Origin: Lepas anatifera
Taxonomy: Eukaryota > Arthropoda > Thecostraca > Lepadidae
Direction: 5' to 3'
Length of the DNA stretch: 64,000 bases
Assembly: GCA_034440635.1 (NCBI GenBank)
Contig: JAOTON010000466.1
Location: 248,001-312,000, forward strand
The notes below the pieces were generated by a model. It was not told the DNA's origin. It saw only the letters and a list, made by a program, of their open reading frames with translations, and ran no database searches. This document shows positions 42,885-61,716 of this stretch, one piece after another (the stretch's first letter is position 1; every line of letters starts with the position of its first letter). Made by a program: the position numbers and the translations under genes.

Positions 42885-45800
42885 TTGCGACTGCACCATG
42901 CAGTGACGGATCCAAGGGGGCCCAGGGGGCCCGGGCCCCCTTAGCTCCCAAGCGCCCCAGTAGAGCTTAGCTCATATCGGGCGCCGAAGGCGCCCGATAT
43001 GGGTGGCGCGCCTGTACCCATCTCGTGCGCCAAGGTGGTAGATACCACTTATTCCACTTGAATTAACACATACTCCTTAAAACCATGGCAAAGCGCCCCT
43101 GCCCAAACATTAGACGCCTTTACTGGTCTTTTGCGCCCCAGTAAAATGTTGCAGATGAAATTTAGAAAGCTAACAAAAGCGCCCCGGCAAAGAAAAGGCG
43201 CCACTAGATAGCAAGATTGCGCCATGGGGAACTAATACACTCCTGAGTAGCCTAGGCGCCCCCTGGATGAAGCGCCCCCAGGTAGCCTAGACGCCCCCTG
43301 GATGAAGCGCCCCCAGGTAGCCTAGGCGCCCCCTGGATGAAGCGCCCTACGGATATCATATGCGCCCTTGGCTAGGAAAGGCGCCCCTGGGCAGCAAAGG
43401 CAAATCTTGGTAACATATGTACCCCGGACAGCATAAGCGTCCCTTAGATAGAAGTAGGCGCTTTAGGAAAATAAAATGCTCACCTTGGGTAGAAAAAGGC
43501 GCCCTTTGATAGCCTAGGCGCCCACTGAAAAAAGCGCGTTACGGATGTCATATGCACCCTTGGATAGCAAAGGCGCCCCTAGGACGGCACCCCTTCGATA
43601 GAAAATCCGCCTTTGGATAGCCTAGGCGCCCCCTGGATGAAGCGCCCTACGGATATCATATGCGCCCTGTTCTAGGAAAGGCGCCCCTGGGCAGCAAAGG
43701 CAAATCTTGGTAACCTAGGTGCTCTGGACAGCATAAGCGCCCCTTAGATAGAAATAGGTGCTTTAGGAATATGAAATGCTCACCTTGGGTAGAAAAAGGC
43801 GCCCTTTGATAGCCTAGGCGCCCACTGGAAAAAACGCCTTACGGATGTCGTATGCACCCTTGGATAGCAAAGGCGCCCCTGGACAGCAAAGACAACCCTG
43901 GATAACACAAGTGCTGTGGACAGCAAAGGCGCCCCTGGGTAGCAAAGGCGCCCCTAGGAAGGCACCCCTTCGATAGAAAAGCCGGCTTTGGATAGCCTAG
44001 GCGCCCCTGGATGAAGCGCCCTACGGATATCATATGCGCCCTTGGCTAGGAAAGGCGCCCCTGGGCAGCAAAGGCAAATCTTGGTAACATATGTACCCCG
44101 GACAAAATAAGCGCCCCTTACATAGAAGTAGGCGCCTTGGGAAAATAAAATGATCACCTTGGGCAGAAAAAGGCGCCCTTTGAAAGCCTAGGCGCCCACT
44201 GGAAAAAGCGCCCTACGGATATTATATGCACCCTTGACTAGGAAAGGCGCCCCTTGGCAGCAAAGTCAAATCTTGGTAACATATGCACCCCGTACAGCAC
44301 AAGCGCACCTTAGATAGAAGTAGGCGCTTTAGGAAAATAAAATGCTCACCTTGAGCAGAAAAAGGCGCCCTTTGATAGCCTAGGCGCCCACTGGAAAAAA
44401 GCACCCTACGGATATCATATGCGCCCTTGGCTAGGAAAGGCGCCCCTGGGCAGCGAAGGCAAATCTTGGTAACATATGTATCCCGTACAGCATAACCGCC
44501 CCTTAGATAGAAGTAGGCGCTTTAGGAAAATAAAATGCTCACCTTGAGCAGAAAAAAGCGCCCTTTGATAGCCTAAGCGCCCACTGGAAAAAACGCCCTA
44601 CGGATGTCATATGCACCCTTGGATAGCAAAGGCGCCCCTGGACAGCAAAGACAACCCTGGATAACACAAGTGCTGTGGACAGCAAAGGCGCCCCTGGGTA
44701 GCAAAGGCGCCCCTGGGTAGCAAAGGCGCCCCTGGGTAGCAAAGGCGCCCCTGGGTAGCAAAGGCGCCCCTGGGTAGCAAAGGCGCCCCTGGGTAGCAAA
44801 GGCGCCCTTAGGAAGGCACCCCTTCGATAGAAACCGGCCTTTGGATAGCCTAGGCGCCAACTGGAAAAAAGCGCCCTACGGATATCATATGCGCCCTTGG
44901 CTAGGAAAGGCGCCCCTGGGCAGCAAAGGCAAATCTTAGTAACATATGTACCCCGTACAGCATAAGCGCCCCTTAGATAGAAGTAGGTGCCTTAGGAAAA
45001 TAAAATGCTCACCTTGGGCAGAAAAAGGCGCCCTTTGATAGCCTAGGCGTCCACTGGAAAAAGTGCCCTACGGATATCATAGGCGCCCTTGGCTAGGAAA
45101 GGCGCCCCTGGGCATGGGCAGCAAAGGAAAATCTTGGTAACATATGTACCCCGTACAGCATAAGCGCCCCTTAGATAGAAGTAGGCGCTTTAGGAAAATA
45201 AAATGCTCACCTTGAGCAGAAAAAGGCGCCCTTTGATAGCCTAGGCGCCCACTGGAAAAAGCGCCCTATGGATGTCATATGCACCCTTGGATAGCAAAGG
45301 CGCCCCTGGACAGCAAAGACAACCCTGGATAACACAAGTGCTGTGGACGGCAAAGGCGCCCCTGGGTAGCAAGGGCGCCCCTAGGAAGGCACCCCTTCGA
45401 TAGAAAAGCCGCCTTTGGATAGCCTAGGCGCCCCCTGGATAAACTAGGAGCCCGAGAAGGAAAACGAGCGCCCCACTGGGAAATACAGGCTCCCTCTGTA
45501 TAACATAGATGCCCCTTATCCACCTTCAGCTGCCCTGGATTGGAGCAGCGCCCCCAAGAGCAAAGGCGCCCTTGGACAAAAAGCCGCCTCCTGGTATCAA
45601 AGGCGCTCCTAGATAACATATGCGCCCCTTAGATAGAAATAGGTGCTCCAGGAAAGCAAAATGCGCCCCTTGGTTAAGAAAGGTGCCCTTGGATAGCAAA
45701 GGCGTCCCTGGACAGCAAAGGCAAATCTGGGAAACATAGGTGCCCTGGACAGAATAGGAGCCCCTTAGATAGAAATAGGCACTTCAGGAAAATAAATGCA

Positions 45801-51800: not shown

Positions 51801-54800
51801 GTCCCTTACGCTTTTTTCTTTGAAATTGATATTTATCGATTAGATACGCTTTATCGTTTATAAAGATTTTCCTTCCTGCTAAATGGTTTTTCAGGACTGA
51901 GACCTATAAGCAGTATCATAAAATCCGCGATTTTTTTCTGATTCCAACGATACCAAATAACCCAAATCTCAAAAATGGCGCTTACGCTTTTCTTGCTTGG
52001 GGCGGCAGAGAGTTGGTGGCACATATTCTAATTTGTTCTTCCAGGAGGATGGCATCCCTCAGGCGAGCGTCCTCAGTATTGGGCTCTTCGCTTTAGCTAT
52101 CAATGATGCTACTGCTGCTATACCTCCGACGATAAAGTGTTCTTTGTTCGTAGATGATATTGGGATCTGGACAACGGCGTCTGGTTCGTCCTCACTCTCT
52201 CGCCAGCTTCAGCTCGCTGTAAATAGCTTGGATCGATGGTCTTCTCAAAACGGTCTGCGCTTCTCAACATCTAAAACAGTAGGCGTTCATTTTTGCCGCA
52301 AGCGTCGTTTGTGCCCAGAACCGAACATAACCCTCGCCCCACCGGGAAGGCCATCGATGGCCCCCCTAAGGTTTTTCCGGGATAGCAGAAAAACGACGAG
52401 GCGCAGCACCGCGGTTGAGGGCTCTACCTCTCACTGCATCATTTTCCCATCATCCCTGAAATTTTTTACCCCGGGTCACCCAAGGTCAGGTCACCAGACG
52501 AGGTCAACCAAGGTCACCTCACTTCACTTTAGAGCTCTGTAAGAGCTACATTTCAAAGTCGATCGATTTGAAACTTCCTACACTTCATGACCCCTCCAGG
52601 GTCTACAAGGTGTATATCCGGCATTTTTGATTTCGTGCCCTGAGGTCAGGTCACGAGGCGACCTCTCCCATTGGAAAAGCATGGGGAAAAGCTATTTCAT
52701 GATATAAAAGCCACAAAAATGATTGCAAATACTCAGACTGCTCAGAACAACGTTTTTGGACACCCTTTCACGGATCCCAGGGGTCATATTTGCCCTTTGA
52801 CTTTTCCAAGGTCATCCAAGGTCACCAGAGGTCAAAAACAGTATTTTGACAATAACTTTTGACCTAATTGAGCTAGAGCGGTGAAACAAACACCATCGTG
52901 TTTGTCTTGTCACTGGCTTTCATTTGATATACAACAAGGTCACTTTTTGACCTTTCGTGACCTCAGGTCATATTAGGTCACGAGGTGACCTCTGGCGGTC
53001 AAACCACTGGCGGGAGGTCTTTACGTTCCACATAGCGGAAAAAGTACTGGCAATTTGCTATCAAATGTACTTTACCAGGTCTCAATAGCTCTAATGGCAT
53101 AAGAGTTATGCCCAGTTTGCTTAATCATTGCATATTTGAGTGAAAATAGCCGATCTTGACCTAATTTGACCTCCGGAGGTCAAACCATTGACCTGAGCAC
53201 TAAAACATGCGAAGTAATTTCTTACTGAATTCACGCGAGCTTTCTATTGCACTTTGCAGATTTGCGCTAACGCCCATATTTTCGGAGTTAGAGGGGGGGC
53301 CATCGATGGCCCCCCGGTGGGGCGAAGGTGGCGCCGGACCCCCGGTGGGGCGCGGGATAACATTGAAAGGTAGCCCTATTCCATTCCAGACATCAGCTAA
53401 GTTCCTTGGTATCATATTCGACAAACGTTTAACGTATCACGCTCACTTACAGAACCTGCGAGATAGGTGTTTCAAGTCCTTGAACTGTCTTAAATGCGTT
53501 TCTCGGACATCATATGGGGCAAATCGTAAAACATTACTCATCCTCTACAGAGCTCTTATTAGGTCCAAGATGGACTACGCTTGCTTTGTTTATGATTCAG
53601 CAAATGAACCCGTAAAGCGTTGCCTCAACATGATCCACCACAGTGCTATTCGGATTTCCACAGGTGCGTTCCGCACCACTCCGATATCTAGTCTGCTCGT
53701 GGAAGCGAATGAACCGCCGTTAGCCATGCGGCGACGACTTCTTGGGCAGAGATATGTATATAAATTAGCGCAGTTTCCGAACCACCCGACGTATAGTGCT
53801 GTTTTCTCGCGCCAACTGATTCGCCTCTTTGACGGCGTTAGTAAAGGCCTCCCATTAGGTGTCAGAGGCCGGAATTTTGCCGTGGAATGTGCCGTGACAA
53901 AGCGAATCATTGCCCGCGTCGAACCATCGGAGATGCCTCGCTGGGAAATACTCCCACCAACAACGGACGCGACTCTCGCCCAGAGTGCTAAATCAGAAAT
54001 GAGTCCCCAACAATTGAAGGCTCTAACTCTTGAGCATATTTCACAATATCATCGACATGCAATGTTCTATACACATGGGTCGAAGACTGACACTGGGGTA
54101 GGTTGTTCGTTCGTTAACGGCACAACTTCTCGGACATTTTCACTTCCCCCTCTCGCTTCTGTTTTCACAGCAGAACTGACTGCTATCGACAAAGCTCTGT
54201 GCTTTTTAGATATTTCTGACCAAACAGATTTTGTCATTTTTACCGACTCGCTGAGTAGCATCCAAGCCTTACTGAGTTTCAATTCTAAGGACAATTTTGT
54301 TCAAAAGATGCAGCGCCACCTAACCTGTCTGGCCAAAGATGGAAAAATGTTACTTTGTGTTGGGTGCCCAGTCATGTGGGAATAGAGGGGAACGAGAGGG
54401 CGGACGCAGCCGTGAAGCGTGCCTCAAGCCGCCCCTGTACACGCAGGCTACCAATCCTGGCCCGAGACCTACTTCCCCATCTTTCTTTGTACCTTCGGAA
54501 TTCCTGGCAGCGCTGGTGGATGACGCACACGCACAATAAATTGCTAGAGATAAAGCCAGAGATTGGTGAGTGGCCCTGTTCATCGCGGCAATGCCGGCGC
54601 GAAGAGGTGGCACTCTGTCGATTACGCACTGGTCACACCCTGGCGACCCACCGATATCTTCTTTGCGGGGAGGCAAGACCACTCTGCCGACGCTGCCTAG
54701 AACCGCTGTCAGTCCGCCACGTACTGGTGTCGTGCCCTCACTATGACCTTGAAAGAGACAGGTACTTTGGCTCTCGAGAACAAGAACTGACATTGACTGA

Positions 54801-57800
54801 TTTGATAGGTAGGAATGCTGATATGATCAGCCAGATCCTCGATTTTCTCAGAGCTATATGTTTCACAGTCGTATATGACCCAGGGTGATTGCTCTGCTCA
54901 GGGGTGCAGAGTGTGGAGCTTGCTAGTGAGTGCTGACGTTTTACTGTGGATGTTTAATCTACGTAACTGTTTGTGTGCCCGGTGATGGGGATGGGAAAGT
55001 GGGAGATTTTCATTTTTACCAAGTATTTGTCTTACTGCAGAACTAACCACTTGAAACAGACCATAAACATGTATTCAGGAAGAGGTTATTAAAGGCATTG
55101 GCCTTAGTTGATCTGGGCGCTATATAACCACCAAGGTTGGTGCGCCCTTAAGCCCCAATAATCAATCAACCGAGCCACCTTCACCCTGGTGGGGGTGTTT
55201 AAACACCCCCTCGAACACGGTCCCTATGCAGGATAGCGATAAAACGCGAAGCTGGTGGATAGCTGATAAAAATTCATGAATAAACCAGGTTCGCCACTTT
55301 TTGGCTCAGGTCAATATTGAGGTCATGACAGGTCAAAGAAAGTGGCATTTTGAGTAGAGTTTTTGGGCCCTAGCGTCTGACAGAGTTGAGTTAGAATCAT
55401 TTTTATGCAGAATTCGCTTTCTCTCGTCACGGCAACCCGAATTATGTATGATATGACCATGCTGCTAGATCAAAACACAAAAATGACCTGACCTCAGGTC
55501 AAATCAAGGTCACTTTTTAACCTAGCATAGTCAAAATGCATATCAATCGACTTGCAATAACAATCCAAACGCAATGATATCAAAATAAAAGCTGTATCAT
55601 CATATCATGCAAAGTTATTGACCTAAATCTGAAAACCGCTAAGTAGCCCCAGATGACCTCTCAGAGGTTGCAGGTAAACAATCACAACATGAACCTGGAA
55701 AGGGGCCTAGGATACTAAGAATGGGAGAATATGAAGGTATTCTCAGCTGTATCTACACAAATACAGCACAATTTCTGTTTTCCCATCTATTTCCAATGGA
55801 CAGCTCATGGTCCGTACTTGACCTTAGGTCATCGATATGAAACAATCCCGGAGTATATGTTGTAGCACTCGGTGGGCCCATTATGTGGCATAAGTTTCAA
55901 TCCGATAGATTCAACTTTTTCTTACTTATGCCACCTTAAATATTTTTTGGAGGTGAGGTCACTTTACCTGCACTGGTGACCTGACCTGAGATGATCCAAC
56001 CCTAAAATTTTAGAAAAAGTGTCGAAATCGCTCAAAGATAAAGTGTGCCAAGTACGGCGGCGCTTCGCACCGCCGTTTTTTTCGAGCCGCCGGAAAAAAC
56101 CCGAGGGGGTGTTCAGGCACCCCCAGCGGGGCCAGGGGTTAATGTCGTAGTTATTGGGTCATTTTAAGAGCCTGGTCTGTGTAAGGTCGACGGAGGACAA
56201 GAAAAAAACATAAATAACAGTCACGTCATTTATAAGTGATAGAGAAACACTGAGCGATAATAGTTTTAGAACCGCATGCATTTCAAAGCTTCGTTTGGCG
56301 TTCCAAGTTCACGTCCTTACCTGGGGCATGGCCTGCACACACTTTTTGGCAGCGTACTGCAGGCCGTCCTCCACGTATTTCTCAAACATGTCCTGCAGGA
56401 AGGTGCGCATGTAGTCCTTGAGCTGTCCCGTGTTCTCCAGCTCGTCCAGCCACGACTTCACGTACGGCAGCCACTTCATCTCGCCCGAGTCCACAAACAC
56501 CATGCCGCACCTGCCGGTCACCCGGGGCAGGTGCGGGGCCGCGGCGGAGAGAAACGGCGGGCAGCAAGGACGCGGGCCATGGGAGGTTAGCAATGGAATA
56601 GGAGTCTGCGAGGCGTAGTACCACCATTCAGTACAATGGTCAGTTTCTACCGGAGATAAAATAGAACACGTCTTAAAGCAATTTATAGTAGTAACATTAT
56701 CATCTGCTAATTGTACTATATAATGCATCATGCGAACAACGCAGTTTTATCGCGCTTTCTTTCCTCAGCAGGGCTGGCATCCATCGTTGGAGACTTCACG
56801 TATCCTTACTAGGATCTACATACAACCCGCTCTCACTGTAATTAGCAGATCGTTATCGCATAACATTAGCTGTCAAACACCACAAGGCCGCACTCACCGG
56901 CTGACGGTGGCGGGAGAAGTTTGTGCCGAGTCTAACTCACCGGCTGACGGTGGCGGAAGAAGTTTGTGTAGAGTCTAACTCACCGGCTGACGGTGGCGGG
57001 AGAGGCCTGCGCCAGGTCTAACTCACCGGCTGACGGTGGCGGGGAAGTTTGTGCCGAGTCTAACTCACCGGCTGTCGGTGGCGGGAGAAGTTTGTGCCGA
57101 GTCTAAATCACCGGCTGACGGAGGCGAGAGAAGTTTGTGCCGAGTCTAACTCACCGGCTGACAGTGGCGGGAGAGGCCTGCGCCAGGTCTAACTCACCGG
57201 CTGACGGTGGCGGGGGAAGTTTGTGCCGAGTCTAACTCACCGGCTGTCGGTGGCGGGAGAAGTTTGTGCCGAGTCTAACTCACCGGCTGTCGGTGGCGGG
57301 AGAAGTTTGTGCCGAGTCTAACTCACCGGCTGACGGTGGCGGGAGAGGCCTGCGCCAGGTCTAACTCACCGGCTGACGGTAGCGGGGGAAGTTTGTGCCG
57401 AGTCTAACTCACCGGCTGTCGGTGGCAGGAGAAGTTTGTGCCGAGTCTAACTCACCGGCTGACGGTGGCAGGAGAAGTTTGTGCCGAGTCTAACTCACCG
57501 GCTGACGGTGGCAGGAGAAGTTTGTGCCGAGTCTAACTCACCGGCTGACGGTGGCGGGAGAAGTTTGTGCCGAGTCTAACTCACCGGCTGACGGTGGCGG
57601 GAGAGGCCTGCGCCAGGTCTAACTCACCGGCTGTCGGTGGCAGGAGAAGTTTGTGCCGAGTCTAACTCACCGGCTGACGGTGGCGGGAGAAGTTTGTGCC
57701 GAGTCTAACTCACCGGCTGACGGTGGCGGGAGAGGCCTGCGCCAGGTCTAACTCACCGGCTGTCGGTGGCAGGAGAAGTTTGTGCCAAGTCTAACTCACC

Positions 57801-60800
57801 GGCTGACGGTGGCGGGGGAGGCCTGCGCCAGGTCGTCCACCTCGAACACCATGCGCACGCCCGGCGTCAGCTTGATGCGCTCCGAGTTGGTGAGGCAGAG
57901 CAGCTTGTTGTCGTCCAGCACGGTGTTCATGTTCTCGATCCAGACGGCGTCCACCGGGCCGTCGAACACGATCCAGTGCTGGGCGTCCGTCTCGTCCTGA
58001 ACGACCCGGCCCAGTTACCGGCGGCCCACCCTTCGGAGAAATGGCATTCTACTGAAGCTATCAAGTATCCGGCACGTTGAAGGGCCGATTGAATGATAAC
58101 CGAGTTCAAAAGCATGATTAACAGGTGCACGGGAGACTTTGCACGGCTTAGAGACGCGGGCATGCTGACGAATGACTTACAGAGACGGCAGACCTGACGA
58201 GCCGGCCGAGGATGCCGTCCCTCCACTCCAGCGTCATCAGGTTCACCTCCCCGTACAGCTCGCCCATGGTGATCGACTTGGGGTTCAGAAACTCCACGAA
58301 CACCTTGTTGTAGACCTTGGATTCAAATCCATCCTCCTCCATTTTTGTCAATGACGACTGAAGAATCTAAAACGGAAACGTTGCAGATTGCAGATGATAC
58401 CAAGGGAATGGCGGAGGTTCAAGTGACATATGGTGACTCTCTCTTGGCCGGTTTTTGGTGCAACAATTATAGTCGGATTCTAAGTCAGCTCATAGTGCTC
58501 ATCTGGGGATGCAGGGCGACCTAAAAACGCCAACCACGAGATGATATATTTGATCTTAAGCTGTGACCCTGTTTTTGAGCAGCCAATCCATGAAAGCACA
58601 GTAATATCTGGAAATGTTTGATATAGGTATTTCATGTATTTCGTAGATCTTTCACCCATAGAATGTTTGCTGCTGAAGCTGCGTTTTTTAACAACCACTT
58701 GAAACCCCAATTCTATCATTTTCACACAATTATCCTGCAAAGAAGGCAAATCATGATCAGCCTTTAGACAATCCGTGTATGACATATAGCTTTGTGTTCC
58801 TTCCACTGCAATACAACGACACCTACATCCAAACCCTGGTAAATCGCGCCCCACATGGCCCGTCTCTCTGCGCTCGTTAGCGACTTGCCCTGTAGATGGT
58901 GGTTTTGCCGCCGCCGGAGCCGCCCACCAGCATCACGCCGTGCCGCACGATCATCGTCTCATGAAACTGGATCACCTGCCGATACCACTGCCTTGTGTCG
59001 CGGGCAGCACTAGGTGAAGGACTGGGCTACCTTCACTCATGGGGCAGCGGGGTTCGCTCAAGTTGACAGGAAGCTAAAATCAAGCTTACGTTCTGAGTCA
59101 GCAGCGATAGCGCGCAGGAAAACCATCAGCGTTATTGTTAGCGTCACGGCCTGAGCAGTTGCTGAGCCGTCGCCTGGTCTCTGGCACCTTTTTGATCTGG
59201 CACGGCTCGGCCTGTAGTTTCATGGAGGTCATGATCTCGATGATACACTCCTTCAGCTGGCCGTAGTCGATTTCAGGGATCACCGCCCCCGGGAACAGGT
59301 CATCCAGGATCGCCTGGCGAGGGTAGCGCAGGGCGATAGTCACAGTAAGTGGATACACACGGGAACCGAAAATAATACAGTGACCCGATCCGGGTGTCAT
59401 ACGCAACACCAATGGCTGTTAGATTCAATATCGTCGGAATCTTTAGGACGCCTGCAATGACATTCTCGAAGCCAACGAAATCCGGCAGCGCGACCAGTTC
59501 GGTAAAATGCATTCACCAGGCGCTGGGATCTTTTCTAAATCAGACCCATTCTATGCAAAGTAATGTCTTCAATTGTCTGTAGTGCCTGGTTTGTTTGAGA
59601 GCAATACAAAGAAAAATAACAATCAATGCACGTTCCACTTCGCACACGCCGGAAACGGTGTGTTGGGGGGGGGTTTGCGGATAGCTGATAGAAAATCCGT
59701 ATGATAGTTGTACTGTACCTTAAACAAGACTAAGTCATCGGAGAGGAACTTGGGCACGTTGGCGTCTCGCAGCGCTCTGATCAGTACAATATCCTCGTTG
59801 ATCTCGGGATTCTCGCGTTTCAGTCGTCCGGCCATCACCAGCACTGACTTCAGAGCCCTGTCAGTACGCCAACACGTCTCGCAGGCTTCAGCAATGGAGC
59901 TGCTCACATCATGTACGCGAAATACTGCAGCCTTACAAAACAGCTCGTTGGTTGGCAGCAAAAATGAAACGCAAATCGTTGATTGGGTTACGACCAATTG
60001 CGAACTGTAAGGGAACTATGTATCACACAGAATGTACGTTTTTATTGTTGGATTCTATTTACGGCAGTTTTTAATTCGCCACTAAATAGCATAAAGGTGC
60101 ACAATAAAACACTGCATGGTACTACCTCAGGCCCTTTAGCAAACATTCGTAATTGATCGCACACTCTCCAAAACCAGGGGACTATTCAGGCTTAAATTGA
60201 ACTGGTCCACACATATTTCGCTACAGGCCATCCTATACATAAGCCACACTGACCGCATGCCGAAGTCGTAGTGGCTCTGCTGAGAGAGCTGCTCTGAGCA
60301 CAGCCGGAACAGGTGCACCATCTTCTGCGCCAGGTTCTTGGACGACTCGAAACCCTCCGAGTACAGGATGACCTCAGCGATCAGAGCTGCAGGCAAGGTA
60401 GAGGGTCAGCGCAGGTGTCGGGAGCGTGCCAGGCGGAACTCGTGGCTGGAATATACCACAAGTCTCAACCCTCGGTACGGAGAAGCTCCGGTAGCAGATG
60501 TTTGTGTGTAGGATCAAGTCAACATTTCCCACGCAAATATATCGTATCAGTTAGAGACTAGTAAGCATCTCATCTGTCTCAGCCAGGAGGAACTGACCAT
60601 AGTCGGGCACCATCATGGAGATGGGTCGGAAGAGAGCCTTCAGGTTGTCGGGCAGCTCCGTCCGGCCGGCGTACCCTGGGTTCATGGTGATGAAGGCCGC
60701 GCAGGAGCGCACCAGCTTAATCTCCCTGCCCTCAAACATGAACCTGTCCCCAGCGGAAGGTGAATTCGTAGACGGAACCAGGTGTGTCGGCCATGGTACC

Positions 60801-61716
60801 AGCGATGTTTTGGCACCTCCAACGCACATGGACCAAAGGCGGGACCACTGACGGCTCCAGACCCGGCTTGTGCCAACCGTCTGCCCACGTACTCGGTCTA
60901 TGTAAGGATTTCTAGGTCAGGTTCACGCCTTACTCAGTTCACACCCGCTGAACACCACGCTCAGATCTGATTTCCGTTGGTTGTGTTCCTATACCAGACG
61001 GACATCGATTAGCGGCAGTAGGAACTTGGTATGAGCACAAGAAGTTGTAATTTTTCAATCGTAAGTATAACTTAACATTGGCTTTAAGTTTCTGTCTCGA
61101 AGCCAAAAATGTACTAGAAGTGCTTCTGGCCAGTCAATTTTGTACAGGATTAAGCCTTCCGCCTCCATCGTACGTGTGGCCTGCAGAAATATTTGATGAC
61201 AGTGGGGCATGGGGCAAAGGCGGATCCACAGGGGGAGGGGAAGGGCAAGGCGGGGAGGCACTTTTCCGCCCCGATCGAACTTCGGTGTCCCTTGAAATGG
61301 TAATGCTCTCCCCCTCCCCTAAACTGTCGCTTCTCACCTCTCTCATCCCTCAGGAGCATCAACGCCCCAGGGATAGAATTTTGCACCCAATTGATAGGTT
61401 TTTGGCGTCCCCCTGGTCAGAATGGTGCCTTTTCCGAGCATGTGCCGCCCCCTCCCCCCACTGGAAACCCTGGATCCACCTATGCAGTAGGGAACTTCCT
61501 GAGATATAAGACCAAGCACAGCGTTTGCTCTACAATATACATCTCATCTAGAGAGAGAGCAGCAGCGTACCGTGTGGCGCGGATGACCTTGGCGTTTCTG
61601 ATGGTGATAAGCTGCTGGGCGATCACAGACAACACCTCGATGTCGATTCGGTTAAACTCGTCGAAGCAGCACCAGGCGCCTGACTGAGCCAGACCAGAGA
61701 AGAACCGGCCCATCAT
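2705..61716 (-). CDS. DNAH6: Axonemal dynein heavy chain 6-like gene, internal part (14 exons)
   Basis: Motor region of an inner-arm axonemal dynein heavy chain, the ATPase that slides doublet microtubules in cilia and flagella. Exons in transcript order: 61716-61571, 60743-60598, 60386-60254, 59857-59719, 59313-59188, 58975-58889, 58366-58181, 57996-57800, 56510-56321, 14004-13781, 13443-13232, 4099-3850, 3689-3497, 2928-2705. All junctions keep the reading frame (phases 2,1,2,0,0,0,0,2,0,2,1,2,0,2) with AG acceptors and GT donors, except one GC donor. Landmarks are AAA1 Walker B CFDEFNR, AAA2 P-loop [11 protein letters not shown]3 P-loop GATGVGKS and AAA3 Walker [14 protein letters not shown]6 is preferred over DNAH1/3/7/12 because of [22 protein letters not shown] and the AAA2/AAA3 linker; this is recognition from memory, not a search. 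N-terminal tail, start of AAA1, AAA4-6 and stalk lie outside the window. No stop or frameshift is seen, so the gene looks functional. Confidence 0.93.
2957..3140 (-). repeat. tRNA-derived SINE, copy 1 (family shared with 10211)
   Basis: Diverged copy of the SINE at 10211-10390, recognised by GGCGTCGCAAACT, GGAAGGGTTTC and CGGGAGCCAG. It is flanked by the 9-bp direct repeat TATAGAAAT (2948-2956 and 3141-3149), as expected for target-primed retrotransposition. It lies in intron 13 in the sense direction of the host gene. Confidence 0.75.
3497..3689 (-). CDS. DNAH6: Dynein exon E13: AAA3 sensor region
   Basis: Encodes [20 protein letters not shown], then [20 protein letters not shown] and [17 protein letters not shown] followed by RFLRHF is the conserved AAA3 signature. 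Acceptor GTTAACAG, donor GTCAGT, phase 0. Confidence 0.95.
3850..4099 (-). CDS. DNAH6: Dynein exon E12: AAA3 Walker A and Walker B
   Basis: Starts [18 protein letters not shown], completing the AAA3 P-loop, continues with [20 protein letters not shown] and ends with [20 protein letters not shown] and PPVELLR. Both nucleotide-binding motifs are intact, so AAA3 should still bind nucleotide. Acceptor TTCGGCAG, donor GTTAGT, phase 2. Confidence 0.96.
4100..7208. other. Intron 11, upstream half; no gene seen
   Basis: No reading frame here has a recognisable domain. The segment 6720-7190 is rich in AGGTCA/TGACCT words like the MITE family elsewhere, but no terminal repeats were found. GC-rich inverted blocks at about 5170-5210 and 5450-5480 could be the ends of a small unidentified element. 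Confidence 0.5.
7209..7923 (+). mobile_element. Possible LTR-retrotransposon LTR
   Basis: Begins TGTTGATGGACG and ends GTCTACA, with AATAAA near 7821 and a GTAAGT donor-like site near 7588. It is followed by TTTTGGTGACAGCC, which resembles an LTR-element leader. No second LTR, no coding region and no target duplication were seen, so this is a tentative call. Confidence 0.35.
7247..7277. promoter_or_regulatory. Pair of perfect CRE palindromes TGACGTCA
   Basis: TGACGTCA occurs at 7247-7254 and 7270-7277, 23 bp apart. It is the full consensus site of CREB/ATF bZIP factors. The pair sits near the start of the putative LTR, where promoter or enhancer elements would be expected. Binding is not shown. 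Confidence 0.4.
7924..8762. other. Intron 11 stretch; no gene seen
   Basis: Non-coding. A frame at 8519-8788 has no recognised domain and runs into the MITE end that follows. Confidence 0.5.
8763..9717. mobile_element. piggyBac-like MITE, complete copy 1
   Basis: Ends CCCTCGCCC and GGGCGAGGG are inverted and are flanked on both sides by TTAA (8759-8762 and 9718-9721). TTAA duplication with ends starting CCCT is the signature of piggyBac. Length is 955 bp with no transposase. The subterminal stretch also forms an inverted repeat (GTTTGAACACCCC against GTTCAAACACCCC). The interior has many AGGTCA/TGACCT words. Relatives lie at 40987, 48250, 52331 and 55184. Confidence 0.85.
9722..10194. other. 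Intron 11 stretch; no gene seen
   Basis: Non-coding sequence between the MITE and the SINE. No repeat or domain recognised. Confidence 0.5.
10211..10390 (-). repeat. tRNA-derived SINE with 16-bp target duplication
   Basis: The 180-bp unit is flanked by the perfect direct repeat AGTTTAGTTGGTTCAA (10195-10210 and 10391-10406). On the minus strand it starts GGCGCGGTAGTGGAGTGGTC, a D-arm/A-box-like region, followed by the B-box-like GGTTCAAGGCC. Its 3' end GTTGGTGCG...TAAGCCCCAATAAT closely matches the 3' end of LINE B (55135-55164), suggesting it borrows that LINE's machinery. Confidence 0.85.
10691..10783. mobile_element. Short foldback element (hairpin MITE)
   Basis: Two 29-bp arms, 10691-10719 and 10755-10783, are inverted copies with one mismatch (key core TGGCCTGTCTCCTCGAATCC), separated by 35 bp. 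A related single arm, CTGGCCTGTCCCCTCGAATC, occurs near 50312. No target duplication was settled. Confidence 0.7.
10784..11237. other. Intron 11 stretch; no gene seen
   Basis: Non-coding; no repeat or domain recognised. Confidence 0.5.
11238..11935. repeat. Diverged direct duplication plus a 50-bp tandem
   Basis: The block at about 11245-11400 (CACCCCTAAACGGCGCGC, CGCCGGGTCACAAG, CCGATGCC) recurs at about 11805-11935 (CGCCCCTGAACGATGCGC, CGCTGGGTCACAAG, CCGATGTC). Inside the first block, 11366-11415 is repeated at once at 11418-11465 (AGGGTCGTC...CCGCAGACCACTCAGCTCCG). Confidence 0.6.
12040..12115 (-). repeat. tRNA-like SINE head
   Basis: On the minus strand this reads GGAGCCGTGGAGTAGTGGGT, an A-box-like start, and about 40 bases later the perfect B-box GGTTCGAACCC. 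No complete cloverleaf was confirmed, and the family differs from the SINE at 10211. Most likely a SINE or tRNA pseudogene. Confidence 0.5.
12116..13231. other. Intron 11 stretch next to E11; no gene seen
   Basis: Non-coding, partly C-rich. No recognised repeat. Confidence 0.5.
13232..13443 (-). CDS. DNAH6: Dynein exon E11: start of AAA3 and half of its P-loop
   Basis: Encodes [20 protein letters not shown], then [20 protein letters not shown] and VMFTGATG. The intron splits the AAA3 Walker A motif: GATG is here and VGKS is in the next exon 9.1 kb away. Acceptor ACCACAG, donor GTGGGG, phase 1. Confidence 0.95.
13781..14004 (-). CDS. DNAH6: Dynein exon E10: AAA2-AAA3 linker
   Basis: Encodes [19 protein letters not shown], then [19 protein letters not shown] and QLEDNTEVK. 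Acceptor TTCTCAG, donor GTGAGT, ends in phase 2. It is the first exon after the giant intron. [13 protein letters not shown] is the family motif preceding AAA3. Confidence 0.94.
14005..15593. other. Start of the giant intron 9 (its 3' end in the transcript)
   Basis: Non-coding except for a probable LINE tail at 14390-14640. The acceptor of E10 is at 14005-14006. Confidence 0.6.
14390..14640 (+). repeat. Probable 3' tail of a truncated non-LTR retrotransposon
   Basis: GC-rich sequence with CCTATCCTTATCCTTATCC, then a terminal GTCAAATAAATAAATAAG, the simple-repeat tail typical of non-LTR elements. There is no coding remnant, so the clade is unknown. Confidence 0.45.
15805..16150. mobile_element. 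hAT-like MITE, family CAGTGGCGGATC, copy 2, truncated
   Basis: Left end CAGTGGCGGATCCAAGG and the interior (AACGGAAAAGCTCGGG, GATCGACCTCC, GCAAGATTTTGGTG) match copies 1 and 3. The right end CTAGATCCG...CTG is missing; similarity stops near TTTGACTTTGG. Confidence 0.7.
16440..16700. repeat. Degenerate GGGCGGCAGTGAT minisatellite, block 1
   Basis: Repeats of the type GAGGGCGGCAGTGAT and GGGGCGACAGCGAT every 20-45 bp. Same family as 18880-19790 and 29220-30360. Confidence 0.6.
16701..17269. other. Unassigned stretch inside the giant hAT-like element
   Basis: Non-coding; no similarity to the other repeats in the window was noticed. Confidence 0.4.
17270..18870 (-). pseudogene. Dead CR1/Jockey-like LINE reverse transcriptase fragment
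   Basis: In minus-strand order it encodes degraded fragments: [19 protein letters not shown], then [48 protein letters not shown] and GVV-stop-GSLLGP. The catalytic box YVDD is at 17609-17620, followed by thumb-like sequence ([17 protein letters not shown]). These are reverse transcriptase motifs in the correct order. A TAG replaces the usual glutamine of VVQGS, and several frameshifts are present. Endonuclease and ORF1 are missing, so it is 5'-truncated. Clade is by motif style only. Confidence 0.8.
18880..19066. repeat. Degenerate GGGCGGCAGTGAT minisatellite, block 2a
   Basis: Units like AGGGCGGAAGTGATAAG and GCCGAGGGCGGCACGAATC. It continues at 19421 after a 347-bp hAT-like insertion. Confidence 0.65.
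19074..19420. mobile_element. Short hAT-like element with perfect 8-bp duplication
   Basis: Left end CAGGTACAGCGGATTCC, right end GGAATCCACCATCTCTG; flanked by AGCTGGGG on both sides (19066-19073 and 19421-19428). The 347-bp interior has the palindrome GTGTGCAGTTGCACAC and only a few GGCGCCCCCTGG units near the right end. It is a compact member of the family of the 8.7-kb element at 19868. Confidence 0.85.
19421..19790. repeat. Degenerate GGGCGGCAGTGAT minisatellite, block 2b
   Basis: Continuation of block 2a: AGGGCGGCAGTGATAAG, GCCGGGTGCTGTTTGAA, GGGGGCGGCATGAATCA and similar units of 20-45 bp, diverged. Confidence 0.65.
20110..21470. repeat. GCGCCCC minisatellite, array 1
   Basis: About 1.3 kb of diverged units of roughly 20-25 bp of the form GGCGCCCCTGGATAGCAAA. 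A second left terminus of the host hAT family (20408-20425) interrupts it. Long minus-strand open frames exist here only because the unit lacks stops. The array is internal to the hAT-like element at 19868. Confidence 0.8.
21471..21944. other. Unassigned stretch inside the hAT-like element
   Basis: Non-coding; nothing recognised. Confidence 0.4.
21945..22105 (-). repeat. tRNA-like SINE, another family
   Basis: On the minus strand it starts GGCCGCCCCGGTTGCTCGG then TTGGTAGAGCGTCGGGCTC, a clear tRNA D-arm and anticodon-side sequence. GATCGGTTCCCC further on may be a decayed B-box. The spacing is too long for a real tRNA. Confidence 0.5.
22461..22719. mobile_element. hAT-like MITE inserted in another hAT-like terminus
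   Basis: Left end CATAGGCAGATCCAGG and right end CCCTGGATCCGCGTATG are inverted repeats. Flanks GACGGATC (22453-22460) and GGCGGATC (22720-22727) match at seven of eight bases. The target was itself a terminus, CAGTGACGGATC at 22449, which resumes as TAGAATTTTAG after the insert. Length is 259 bp. Confidence 0.7.
22728..23784. other. Unassigned stretch inside the hAT-like element
   Basis: AT-rich non-coding sequence; no motif recognised. Confidence 0.4.
23785..25235 (+). pseudogene. Dead RNase H-bearing LINE fragment
   Basis: Fragments in order: [19 protein letters not shown] (motif A), [17 protein letters not shown], catalytic [13 protein letters not shown] (YADD at 24141-24152), [17 protein letters not shown] (thumb), [15 protein letters not shown], then an RNase H start [12 protein letters not shown] near 25014 and [17 protein letters not shown]. 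Multiple stops and frameshifts break it. The order RT, thumb, RNase H is that of the I/R1/LOA group of non-LTR retrotransposons. No endonuclease or ORF1 remains. Confidence 0.8.
25236..26556. other. Unassigned stretch inside the hAT-like element
   Basis: AT-rich, non-coding; nothing recognised. Confidence 0.4.
26557..26640 (-). repeat. tRNA-like SINE head
   Basis: Minus strand: GTGGCGCAGTGGTCTAGTGG then TTAGAGGTCC, an A-box-like start, and GGGTCGAATCCGGGG, one base off a B-box. Lower-coordinate sequence may be the SINE body, but its end was not found. Confidence 0.5.
26641..28499. other. Unassigned stretch near the right end of the hAT-like element
   Basis: Non-coding. A few GGCGCCCCC units at 28520-28575 precede the right terminus, suggesting the minisatellite once reached both ends. 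The palindromic GCGTATAACG words near 27850-27925 were noted but not assigned. Confidence 0.4.
29220..30360. repeat. GGGGCGGCAGTGATCAGCCAG minisatellite, main block
   Basis: Roughly 750 bp (29225-29975) of fairly regular 21-23-bp units such as CAGGGGGCGGCAGTTATCAG, then about 400 bp of diverged units. It lies just inside the right terminus of the giant hAT-like element; blocks of the same family (16440-16700, 18880-19790) lie towards the left terminus. Confidence 0.85.
30469..31869. other. Spacer between the giant hAT-like element and LINE A
   Basis: Pyrimidine-rich non-coding sequence. A frame at 31131-31448 ends in a lysine-rich stretch ([14 protein letters not shown]) but has no recognisable domain. 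It may include untranslated leader of LINE A or of another element; nothing certain. Confidence 0.4.
31811..32371 (+). pseudogene. LINE A N-terminal part: 2A-like peptide and PHD finger
   Basis: The frame is open from 31811 to a TAG at 32369 and has no clear ATG; a GTG sits at 32033. It encodes [17 protein letters not shown] and then a PHD-type zinc finger C-x2-C...[12 protein letters not shown]...C-x2-C (GSWLCVGC). The hydrophobic run before the 2A motif is leader-like. In another frame (32251-32433) [12 protein letters not shown] resembles the basic linker of such elements, suggesting two compensating frameshifts near 32300 and 32400. PHD fingers in LINE ORFs may bind histone tails; that is family inference. 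Confidence 0.75.
32095..32127 (+). other. 2A-like ribosome-skipping motif GDIEINPGP
   Basis: Residues GDIEINPGP match the 2A consensus D-V/I-E-x-N-P-G-P. In active 2A peptides the ribosome fails to form the last Gly-Pro bond and releases two proteins from one reading frame. 2A-like motifs are known at the N-termini of some non-LTR retrotransposons. Coordinates are approximate; activity is not shown. Confidence 0.7.
32372..33415 (+). pseudogene. LINE A endonuclease (AP/exonuclease III type)
   Basis: Domain order: [11 protein letters not shown] (metal-binding N), [12 protein letters not shown] (catalytic E), [23 protein letters not shown] (Y), [15 protein letters not shown] (D and N), and [11 protein letters not shown] (final D-H). 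All key residues of an apurinic-like endonuclease that nicks target DNA for reverse transcription are present. The frame is the same as the PHD part, separated by the TAG at 32369, and it ends at a stop at 33413 because of a frameshift before the RT. Confidence 0.9.
33445..35400 (+). pseudogene. LINE A reverse transcriptase
   Basis: An open frame of about 650 codons. Motifs in order: [59 protein letters not shown] (motif A, catalytic D), [15 protein letters not shown] (motif B), [10 protein letters not shown] (motif C, FADD at 34651-34662), and [15 protein letters not shown] (thumb). The RT core itself is undamaged. It carries out target-primed reverse transcription in the family. Upstream and downstream frameshifts disconnect it from endonuclease and RNase H. 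Confidence 0.93.
35417..36375 (+). pseudogene. LINE A RNase H and C-terminal zinc knuckle
   Basis: RNase H motifs: [10 protein letters not shown] (first D, frame ending at 35605), then after a frameshift [16 protein letters not shown] (E), [12 protein letters not shown] (second D) and [18 protein letters not shown] (final D). All four catalytic acids are readable across two frames. It is followed by a C-x2-C-x8-H-x4-C knuckle (CPEC at about 36205 to the C at about 36255). RNase H would remove RNA from the RNA-DNA hybrid. Confidence 0.9.
36753..38405 (+). pseudogene. LINE B ORF1, gag-like with three CCHC knuckles, one stop
   Basis: ATG at 36753 (MAETYTSYM) starts a frame broken only by TAA at 37203-37205; the same frame continues to 38405 (about 550 codons). 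After the stop come [20 protein letters not shown] and three zinc knuckles: [27 protein letters not shown] and [15 protein letters not shown]. The rest is proline-rich and basic. Such ORF1 proteins bind the element's RNA. The single premature stop suggests it died recently. Confidence 0.88.
38498..40358 (+). pseudogene. LINE B endonuclease and first half of reverse transcriptase
   Basis: Endonuclease motifs: [49 protein letters not shown], and after a frameshift near 38920 [11 protein letters not shown]. The RT begins with [45 protein letters not shown] and [14 protein letters not shown] (motif A). Frameshifts lie near 38920, 39800 and 40100. The frame TERTFRVR is cut at 40358 by the 11.65-kb element and resumes at 52013 with VGGTYSN. 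Confidence 0.9.
40680..40712. repeat. Left subterminal hairpin of the 11.65-kb element
   Basis: AAAAAAAGCGTA (40680-40691) pairs with TACGCTTTTTTT (40701-40712) across a 9-base loop: a perfect 12-bp stem. Similar half-sites occur at 40608 (AAAAAAGCGTA) and in the terminus itself. Confidence 0.8.
41524..41719. mobile_element. Short hAT-like MITE with GGCGCC ends
   Basis: Ends CATGGGCGCC and GGCGCCCCTG are inverted with one mismatch; GGTGTACG flanks both sides perfectly (41516-41523 and 41720-41727). The 196-bp interior has GGGGGGACGCGTCCCCCC palindromes. Its right end GGCGCCCCTG equals the core of the nearby minisatellite unit. Confidence 0.85.
41850..42640 (-). pseudogene. Dead Jockey/CR1-like reverse transcriptase fragment
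   Basis: Minus-strand remnants: QRVIVNGK, then [20 protein letters not shown] and INDIP (motif B, usually GVPQGS), followed by [15 protein letters not shown] with YADD at 42424-42435. Downstream pieces such as [10 protein letters not shown] and KFVILALY correspond to the thumb. Several stops and frameshifts. Closest in style to Jockey or CR1 elements; only about 0.8 kb survives. Confidence 0.75.
42789..42881. repeat. (TA)n microsatellite
   Basis: About 90 bp of nearly pure TA dinucleotides with a short AAAATATATATTAAAATTTT interruption; abuts the left duplication of the hAT-like element at 42901. Confidence 0.95.
44688..44801. repeat. Six perfect 19-bp units inside array 2
   Basis: GCGCCCCTGGGTAGCAAAG is repeated six times without change, with a seventh diverging unit at 44802. 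This is the youngest, most homogeneous part of the array. Confidence 0.95.
47341..47401 (+). repeat. Short LINE B-like 3' tail
   Basis: GGGCGCTACATGAGCTCAAGG, then TTCACGCGCACCTAAGCC and CAATAATAGAGCAATCAATC, parallels the LINE B end at 55115-55170. Only about 60 bp is present, inside the minisatellite: either an extreme 5' truncation or part of a SINE. Confidence 0.6.
48250..49035. mobile_element. piggyBac-like MITE, left three quarters
   Basis: GGGGGGGGTGCTTGAACACCC, then AAGGTTGTGTCATCTCAGGT, AAAAATGTTTAAGGTGGCGT and GTGACCTTGACCTACCCACA follow the complete copy at 8763 block by block. Similarity stops near GATGCTAGAGTAT and no right end is seen. The left terminus is diverged. Confidence 0.7.
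49036..50124. other. Unassigned segment inside the hAT-like element
   Basis: Non-coding; the first part is rich in GGGGCCC and CAGCT words at irregular spacing, possibly a worn-out repeat. No gene seen. Confidence 0.4.
50133..50603. mobile_element. hAT-like MITE, family CAGTGGCGGATC, copy 3
   Basis: Left end CAGTGGCGGATCCAG, right end CTAGATCCGCGACTG, flanked by AAATTGGC on both sides (50125-50132 and 50604-50611). Interior matches copies at 46 and 15805, plus a segment near 50300-50430 that resembles an arm of the foldback element at 10691. Confidence 0.88.
51317..52008. repeat. Right subterminal region of the 11.65-kb element
   Basis: Repeated half-sites AAAAGCGTA / TACGCTTTT: 51441, about 51625-51660, 51727-51756, 51786-51815 and the terminus. 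A perfect 13-bp stem is AAAAAAAGCGCAC (51568-51580) with GTGCGCTTTTTTT (51588-51600). No open frame of note. Clustered subterminal motifs are often transposase binding sites; that is inference here. Confidence 0.75.
52009..52330 (+). pseudogene. LINE B reverse transcriptase, motifs B and C
   Basis: Resumes the RT with [20 protein letters not shown] (motif B, normally IPQGS) and [17 protein letters not shown] (motif C; FVDD at 52147-52158 in place of the usual YADD or FADD). It is followed by [19 protein letters not shown] and ends PEPNI at the MITE insertion. The frame is intact over the whole segment. Confidence 0.9.
52331..53356. mobile_element. piggyBac-like MITE inside LINE B, ATAA target
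   Basis: Ends CCCTCGCCCCACCGGG and CCCGGTGGGGCGCGGG are 16-bp inverted repeats with one mismatch. ATAA flanks both sides (52327-52330 and 53357-53360). Removing the element and one ATAA restores [12 protein letters not shown] in LINE B. The target is ATAA, not TTAA. The interior is dense in AGGTCA/TGACCT, for example AAGGTCAGGTCACC. No coding capacity. Confidence 0.9.
53357..54891 (+). pseudogene. LINE B thumb, RNase H and zinc knuckle
   Basis: [19 protein letters not shown] (thumb) is followed by a long linker and RNase [44 protein letters not shown], and after a frameshift near 54360 [18 protein letters not shown]. The first catalytic aspartate is replaced by histidine (codon 54074-54076), so the RNase H should be inactive. 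A C-x2-C-x7-H-x4-C knuckle ([17 protein letters not shown]) and a stop at about 54888 end the ORF. Confidence 0.88.
55184..56138. mobile_element. piggyBac-like MITE, inverted copy
   Basis: Carries in reverse the blocks of the copy at 8763: TTTCTCTCGTCACGGCAACC, AAGGTCACTTTTTAACCTAG, TGCAAAGTTATTGACCTAAA and CAGATGACCTCTCAGAGGT. Ends CCCTGGTGGGGGTGTTT and GGGGCCAGGG are inverted. Flanking TTCA and TTAA are only similar, so the exact ends are uncertain by a base. It landed immediately after the LINE B tail. Confidence 0.8.
56321..56510 (-). CDS. DNAH6: Dynein exon E9: end of AAA2
   Basis: Encodes [20 protein letters not shown] and then a helical stretch ending CVQAMPQ. Acceptor CCGGCAG, donor GTAAGG, phase 0 at the 3' end. 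The next exon is about 42.3 kb downstream; CVQAMPQ joined to [13 protein letters not shown] fits the usual AAA2/AAA3 linker, so no intervening exon is needed. Confidence 0.93.
56889..57833 (-). repeat. DNAH6: 43-bp minisatellite built from the E8 5' splice site, 22 units
   Basis: Twenty-two tandem units of 43 bp (one of 42). On the minus strand each has 34 bases of E8 coding sequence ending CCCGCCACCGTCAGCCG, then the donor GTGAGTTAG. The unit at 57791-57833 is the real exon end; the other 21 lie in intron 8. Two versions alternate: B (GAGGCCTGCGCCAGGT on the + strand, at 56975, 57146, 57318, 57576, 57705, 57791) identical in this part to the exon, and A (GAAGTTTGTGCCGAGT, all others). Reading past any donor meets TGA at once, so only the outermost donor gives functional protein. 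Confidence 0.95.
57800..57996 (-). CDS. DNAH6: Dynein exon E8: AAA2 Walker B; 3' end seeds a minisatellite
   Basis: Encodes [20 protein letters not shown], then NSERIKLTP and finally [12 protein letters not shown]. It holds the AAA2 Walker B region. The exon ends AGCCG (phase 2) at donor GTGAGT. Its last 34 bases together with the first 9 intron bases form the repeat unit of the 43-bp minisatellite that fills the adjacent intron, so the true donor is the first of 22 near-identical donors met by the spliceosome in transcript order. Confidence 0.94.
58181..58366 (-). CDS. DNAH6: Dynein exon E7: AAA2 core
   Basis: Encodes [20 protein letters not shown] and later [20 protein letters not shown], then the [15 protein letters not shown] stretch. 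Acceptor TTTTAG, donor GTAAGT, phase 0 on both sides (62 codons). [12 protein letters not shown] is a strongly conserved AAA2 motif of axonemal dyneins. Confidence 0.95.
58883..58888 (-). promoter_or_regulatory. GC-type 5' splice site GCAAGT of intron 6
   Basis: E6 ends CAGG and is followed by GCAAGT; apart from the C it matches the donor consensus. GC-AG introns are a known minority class spliced by the U2 machinery and usually have strong flanking consensus, as here. Confidence 0.85.
58889..58975 (-). CDS. DNAH6: Dynein exon E6: AAA2 P-loop, GC splice donor
   Basis: A 29-codon exon reading [20 protein letters not shown] then GGGKTTIYR, the Walker A motif of AAA2. Acceptor CGGCAG at the 5' end. 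The 3' end is TACAGG followed by GCAAGT, so the intron uses a GC donor instead of GT. No GT in the next bases would keep the frame, while the GC site joins YR to ILQSSL exactly as expected for the family. Confidence 0.9.
59188..59313 (-). CDS. DNAH6: Dynein exon E5: start of AAA2
   Basis: Encodes [20 protein letters not shown] and then [15 protein letters not shown]. Acceptor CGCCAG, donor GTGCCA, both junctions in phase 0 (42 codons). DLFPG with a following DYG marks the entry into AAA2. Confidence 0.93.
59719..59857 (-). CDS. DNAH6: Dynein exon E4: AAA1-AAA2 link
   Basis: Encodes [19 protein letters not shown] followed by [20 protein letters not shown]. Acceptor TGACAG, donor GTACAG, phase 0 at the 3' end. 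LKREN and [14 protein letters not shown] are the usual axonemal dynein signatures between AAA1 and AAA2. Confidence 0.94.
60254..60386 (-). CDS. DNAH6: Dynein exon E3: AAA1 small subdomain
   Basis: Reads [20 protein letters not shown], then [17 protein letters not shown]. Acceptor CTGCAG and donor GTCAGT. Ends in phase 2; the join to E4 reads [24 protein letters not shown] is typical of axonemal heavy chains; cytoplasmic dynein differs here. Confidence 0.94.
60598..60743 (-). CDS. DNAH6: Dynein exon E2: AAA1 sensor I region
   Basis: Reads [17 protein letters not shown] and then [20 protein letters not shown], one of the most conserved stretches of all dynein heavy chains. Acceptor ACAG lies at 60744-60747 and donor GTCAGT follows position 60598. 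The exon ends in phase 1; the split codon with E3 gives MMVPDYALIAEV. Length is 146 bp. Confidence 0.95.
61215..61484. mobile_element. Possible hAT-like MITE in intron 1
   Basis: CAAAGGCGGATCCACAGGG at the left and CCCTGGATCCACCTATG at the right are inverted and resemble the ends of the MITE at 22461. No convincing 8-bp duplication was found. Interior is G-rich and non-coding. Confidence 0.45.
61571..61716 (-). CDS. DNAH6: Dynein exon E1: AAA1 Walker B region
   Basis: Begins [11 protein letters not shown] after an acceptor GACAG and ends in phase 2 before donor GTACGC. It carries the AAA1 Walker B motif [11 protein letters not shown] and continues [20 protein letters not shown]1 is the main ATP-hydrolysing site of dynein; its P-loop must lie in an exon upstream of the window. 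The next exon restores the codon to give RATRFMFEG. Family residues in this stretch are conserved, including the Walker B aspartate and glutamate. Confidence 0.95.

Follow-up and report, generated by a model that had tools for sequence, protein, structure and literature searches.

A 43-bp minisatellite with 22 splice donors at an exon end of a DNAH6-type dynein gene in Lepas anatifera

When a splice donor is repeated many times over at the end of an exon, which copy is used, and what becomes of the message if another one is taken? The question is raised by a stretch of 64,000 nucleotides of Lepas anatifera DNA (assembly GCA_034440635.1, contig JAOTON010000466.1, positions 248,001 to 312,000; hereafter the window, numbered from its own first letter), in which the last part of exon E8 in a dynein heavy chain gene is repeated, with its donor, as a minisatellite. 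Turri et al. reportedly described, in 1995, the minisatellite of human IFI6 (6-16, G1P3) as a source of multiple splice donors. Given this precedent, donor minisatellites are a known kind, and the array described here is a striking natural example of it.

A repeated donor in a dynein gene

Tandem Repeats Finder (TRF) reported a single array at 56892-57816 (period 43, 21.5 copies, 89% matches, score 1479). A minus-strand scan with the pattern CCGGTGA[GT]T gave 22 donor-bearing units, the first donor bases of which lie at 57799, 57756 and so on down to 56897. The spacing from unit to unit is 43 bp in 20 of the 21 steps and 42 bp in the remaining one; therefore, no intervening unit was overlooked. 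The first unit is the genuine end of E8 and the 21 inner units are decoys, the last of which passes into the unique intron sequence GTGAGTGCGG... The heptamer CCGGTGA is kept in all 22 units, and CCG followed by GTGAGT in 21 of them. The landmarks of the array are as follows.

56892..57834, minus strand: minisatellite of 22 units, each with about 35 terminal coding bases of E8, GTGAGT and TA filler (TRF, pattern scan)
57794..57799, minus strand: outermost donor GTGAGT, the true one (pattern scan, splice-site reading)
57106..57111, minus strand: the sole mutated donor, GTGATT, in the unit at 57111 (pattern scan, U1 pairing)
56892..56897, minus strand: innermost donor GTGAGT, beyond which the intron sequence is unique (GCGG...)

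The sequence-only reading that preceded this analysis had described a 22-unit minisatellite repeating an exon-intron boundary, which both TRF and the 22 pattern matches bear out. Its finer claims had to be adjusted. A 43-bp unit made of 34 coding bases and GTGAGT is correct for the donor in 21 of the 22 units, but one unit has 42 bp, one carries GTGATT, and the coding part is about 35 bases. Likewise, the same donor recurs in all copies except that one, but the upstream context, also said to be the same, falls into two types, type A in 6 and type B in 16 of the 22 units.

The identity of the host gene was assessed by protein similarity. The three best matches of a PDB search with 435 residues were DNAH6 (E ~1e-202; next sequence, 1e-163), Biomphalaria DNAH6 showed 70% identity across E1-E9, and the Pfam domains AAA_6 and AAA_5 were matched. 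Judged by these similarities, the host gene is a DNAH6-type axonemal dynein heavy chain gene, with the following parts.

58181..61716, minus strand: exons E1-E7 and the introns between them (tblastn, splice-site reading)
57800..57996, minus strand: E8, 197 nt (tblastn, splice-site reading)
56511..57799, minus strand: intron 8, 1289 nt from the true donor and 387 nt from the innermost
56321..56510, minus strand: E9, 190 nt (tblastn, splice-site reading)
14010-13780, 13493-13230, 4103-3795 and 3691-3563, minus strand: four further exons (tblastn spans; ends set by eye, the last exon traced only as far as 3563)

E1 to E9 (61716 to 56321) join in consistent phase into 450 open codons; seven of the eight introns among them start with GT and one with GC, and E9 ends at GTAAGG. 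With nine exons in frame and four more downstream, the locus seems to have been maintained as a gene. The read parts of the thirteen exons contain no internal stop.

Three minor features of the gene were also noted. The donor of E6 at 58888-58887 (minus strand) is of the GC type (AGG/GCAAGT), making its intron a GC-AG intron. Intron 9 (14005-56320, minus strand) extends over about 42 kb and is rich in retrotransposon pieces and tandem repeats, and a tRNA-Gly (gcc) is predicted within a dynein intron at 10315-10387 (minus strand), where it may be either a gene or the head of a SINE.

Choice among near-equal donors

The duplex energy with U1 was -9.4 kcal/mol for the true donor and 19 decoys, -10.5 kcal/mol for the innermost donor and -5.4 kcal/mol for the GTGATT unit; among the remaining eight donors of E1-E9, it ranged from -4.3 to -7.9 kcal/mol in seven and was -11.5 kcal/mol for E9. 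Since pairing is nearly identical along the array, the sequence hardly distinguishes the true donor, and position must decide. U1 could bind 21 near-equal sites. Because E8 is 197 nt long, is preceded by an intron of 184 nt and is followed by a long one (1289 nt from the true donor and at least 387 nt from any donor), exon definition would favour the outermost donor, the one nearest to E8's own acceptor. Most of the time, the 21 inner copies would be silent decoys spliced out along with the intron, and the few transcripts made from a decoy would likely be cleared by nonsense-mediated decay. This is the course that we favour, with some reserve, and the array may be nearly silent in splicing.

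Human data provide support for exon definition at this site. Five minigenes that each carried a pair of identical strong donors spliced exclusively from the upstream one under exon definition, and near-equal donors lean genome-wide toward the upstream site if the preceding intron is short and the following one long (PMC9225289). In IFI6, two downstream repeat units serve as donors and give rise to three mRNA species (PMC4526556); usage thus stays near the exon, which we counted in favour of the outermost choice.

Several points weigh against it. Approximately 60% of all human alternative donor events favour the downstream site, a figure that applies before strength matching; large exons were skipped when both donors were weakened; and GC-rich exons with short introns lean to intron definition (PMC9225289), the GC content at third codon positions of the dynein gene being 0.86. 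These donor-choice data come from humans rather than from the species studied. Pairing with U1 is slightly stronger at the innermost donor than at the true one (-10.5 vs -9.4 kcal/mol), and some decoy use should be expected if IFI6 is a guide. Intron definition might instead select the innermost donor; this was judged less likely, as an intron of at least 387 nt still remains.

RNA structure at the donors was assessed by folding. In type A and type B units folded singly, the donor lies inside a small hairpin, and the mean unpaired probability was 0.22 for the 22 array donors, compared with 0.38 (sd 0.16) for 236 other GTs of the gene region. A special structure was rejected, 19% of those 236 GTs being as low or lower.

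The consequence of decoy use can be read from the joined exons. When E8 is extended to any inner donor and then joined to E9, TGA arises at E8 codon 67, directly after ...SPATVSR, irrespective of the frame of the extension. Use of an alternative donor thus brings a premature stop for all 21 decoys, the relation found where donor choice is coupled to nonsense-mediated decay. The sequence-only reading had predicted such an immediate TGA, and it was right in 21 of 21 joins. Its statement that a decoy adds 43n bases holds for most decoys, but the four innermost add 43n-1, owing to the 42-bp unit. That only the outermost donor gives functional protein is true for direct decoy use; a two-step path through an acceptor-like CAG, treated below, would add CCG (one arginine) in frame. 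As an interpretation it was supported in part: the dynein exon end, the amplified donor, the near-equality of the donors and the immediate TGA were all recovered, the exclusive role of the outermost donor is restricted to direct use, and the array might, as that reading suggested, affect U1 recruitment, site competition or decay.

A stop behind every decoy also suits a different role for the array, in which decoys are used frequently and the amount of dynein mRNA that escapes nonsense-mediated decay is set by the number of units. Such a role would be served by the near-equal pairing of the donors with U1 and by the TGA that follows direct use of any of the 21 decoys, and Hps1 provides a precedent for alternate donor choice coupled to decay: in its exon 18, the upstream donor gives the full-length protein and the downstream donor leads to nonsense-mediated decay (PMC4222953). 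The array resembles Hps1 in that the upstream donor gives the full-length protein and downstream use is predicted to lead toward decay. However, Hps1 has two unequal donors and a known regulator, whereas 22 near-equal donors with no known regulator are present here. Furthermore, the array analysis found no sign of regulation, the conservation of columns -6 to +8 described below being the only hint, and the two-donor minigenes favour the outermost site (PMC9225289). We consider a braking role of this kind unlikely.

The array offers more than a question of use. Studies of donor choice typically employ two competing sites, and here a natural series presents 21 donors with the same core sequence at near-even 43-nt steps, with an immediate stop codon as a readout that separates the true donor from every decoy. 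The locus would make a natural test of how the spliceosome chooses among near-identical sites, and donor competition is directly testable in it. If array length varies among individuals, RNA could be used to gauge how far exon definition shields against decoys.

Unit types and growth of the array

Six of the 22 units, namely the true exon end and five inner ones, belong to the exon-like type A, and 16 to the diverged type B; from the exon inwards, their order is ABABBABBBBBABBBABBBABB. The two consensus sequences differ in six columns, which lie in the upstream half and fall inside 12 of the 43 columns, a clustering with p=0.0025 by simulation; it would be accounted for by a conversion tract or by constraint on the half that holds the donor. 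With up to 3 mismatches allowed, a 20-base piece of type B had 16 matches in the window, all of them within the array, and none in 100 shuffles. The idea that type B is the fossil of an older exon or paralogue was rejected, as no B-like sequence occurs elsewhere in the window. Among the best 120 of 4357 homologues, ATVSR is present in 109, all of which read ASPATVSR, and the other 11 have no ATVSR match; the type-B reading TSPATVSR is absent from all of these 109. From this comparison, type B looks derived.

Identity between units peaks at a lag of 4 (0.926; permutation p=0.02, uncorrected, one of eight lags), a block structure such as block exchange, or ordinary slippage and unequal exchange, would leave. 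Outside the A/B columns, 1 of 15 columns from -6 to +8 is variable, compared with 10 of 22 elsewhere (p=0.012). For the narrow donor window from -3 to +6, the corresponding counts are 1 of 9 and 10 of 28 (p=0.16). These column windows were picked post hoc, and the conservation on the donor side is only a hint.

Considering that the last unit runs into unique intron sequence, the array probably began when some 41 bp surrounding the original donor were duplicated. This segment (GACCTGG...GTGAGT plus TA filler) would have given a two-unit array, one unit of which then would have diverged into type B, and slippage or unequal exchange could subsequently have amplified A and B units in small blocks. 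If the outermost donor is the one used, growth of this array is compatible with an intact gene because it merely lengthens the intron; the locus thereby illustrates how a minisatellite that begins inside an exon may be borne by a coding gene.

The same block structure would also suit a neutral minisatellite without any effect of decoy splicing. Together with this possibility, we considered that the gene copy is unexpressed or that the number of units is an assembly error. Tandem repeats are common in the window (36 TRF rows), and the lag-4 pattern fits ordinary slippage and unequal exchange. However, the unbroken frame of the examined exons and the ~70% identity to Biomphalaria DNAH6 make a dead copy unlikely, and private changes in the units at 57111, 56940 and 57756 speak against a simple duplication of the consensus. 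We give this group of explanations little chance.

Acceptor-like motifs, precedents and surroundings

Every unit also holds a pyrimidine-rich tract and a CAG that ends 3 nt before the donor, giving it the look of an acceptor, CCG and a donor. Pyrimidines occupy 12-14 of the 17 positions ahead of the unit CAG, compared with 6-13 at the nine acceptors of the dynein gene. The window contains 53 GTRAGT sites on both strands; such a CAG lies within 10 nt of the true donor and 20 decoys, 21 sites that are all in the array, and of none of the remaining 32. If a unit CAG were spliced to and the donor next to it used afterwards, CCG, one arginine codon, would be added in frame.

These features raise the possibility that the intron is removed by hops from unit to unit, each hop adding one arginine codon. 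The confinement of the CAG-donor juxtaposition to the array, the pyrimidine content and the preserved frame all favour it. If it were true, the extra arginines would adjoin the near-invariant ASPATVSR of the dynein motor, and array length would set both protein polymorphism and expression. The pyrimidine test is loose, however: it is passed by 13 of the 107 YAGs in the gene region, among them only three true acceptors and, once, the end of E8 itself. Introns of 40 and 83 nt would be needed for the first hops, when the shortest intron of E1-E9 has 184 nt. At true recursive sites, AG stands immediately before GT; here, as opposed to those and to dual-specific sites, a 3-nt spacer separates them, although a donor would still follow. 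Removal by such hops is therefore quite improbable. U1 is also known to protect transcripts against premature cleavage and polyadenylation (U1 telescripting), and although dense strong U1 sites do lie upstream of the ~42-kb intron, it is highly improbable that the 22 sites serve to shield the long transcript in this manner.

Exon definition at the outermost donor thus remains the course that we favour, and the array can be set beside known systems. Like that of IFI6, the minisatellite lies across an exon-intron boundary and repeats a consensus-like donor in each unit (GTGAGT in 21 of 22). Here, the units number 22 and measure 43 bp (one, 42 bp). In IFI6, decoys give protein isoforms, whereas here each direct decoy brings an immediate stop; this stop, the location in a dynein gene and the presence of an acceptor-like signal in every unit set the array apart from IFI6. 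The polyubiquitin gene UBC carries a tandem array of AGGT dual-specific splice sites, which act as donor and acceptor (PMC10809524). Splice signals recur once per tandem unit in both cases, but the core in UBC is AGGT, whereas CAG-CCG-GTGAGT, with AG and GT 3 nt apart, is found in all units here. Nor does the intron lie within the repeat: the units beyond the first are noncoding, and the intron acceptor (56511) is outside the array, 386 nt past the last donor. Tandem repeats at exon-intron boundaries of human duplicated genes (PMC2812944) and intron gain through tandem duplication (PMC4974935) are similar in that tandem duplication at a splice site alters intron structure; in the present case, however, an existing intron was lengthened and no new one arose. 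Minisatellites near alternative splicing have been described for C. elegans (PMC4039745). In the open-licence literature, no work was found that ties together minisatellites, dynein heavy chains and splicing, and a combined search found none on variable number tandem repeat minisatellite splice sites at an intron boundary.

Elsewhere in the window, a Rfam scan gave no match at gathering scores, and several retroelement-like regions were noted. A non-LTR (long terminal repeat) retrotransposon has long frames at 31811-36375 (plus strand) with RVT_1 and RNase_H matches. Its first frame, 31811-32371, holds what we take, by eye, to be a 2A-like GDIEINPGP and a zinc-finger-like stretch. Frames at 36660-39798 (plus strand) resemble a second non-LTR element, with zinc-knuckle-like and endonuclease-like stretches seen by eye. 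A third, broken retroelement occupies 51961-54888 (plus strand), with RVT_1 at 51961-52542 and a sub-threshold RNase_H at 54289-54888. For a reverse transcriptase in the window, the best-scoring named relative is from the barnacle Amphibalanus amphitrite (54% identity over 84%), with four other matches scoring higher. Two further repeat regions were recorded: a tandem array of 35 copies of the 21-bp unit CAGTTATCAGCCAGGGGGCGG at 29228-29955, and dense, partly higher-order tandem repeats of ~19-bp CCCCTGGATAGCAAAGGCG units at 43247-45722, similar units of which occur at 20150-21391.

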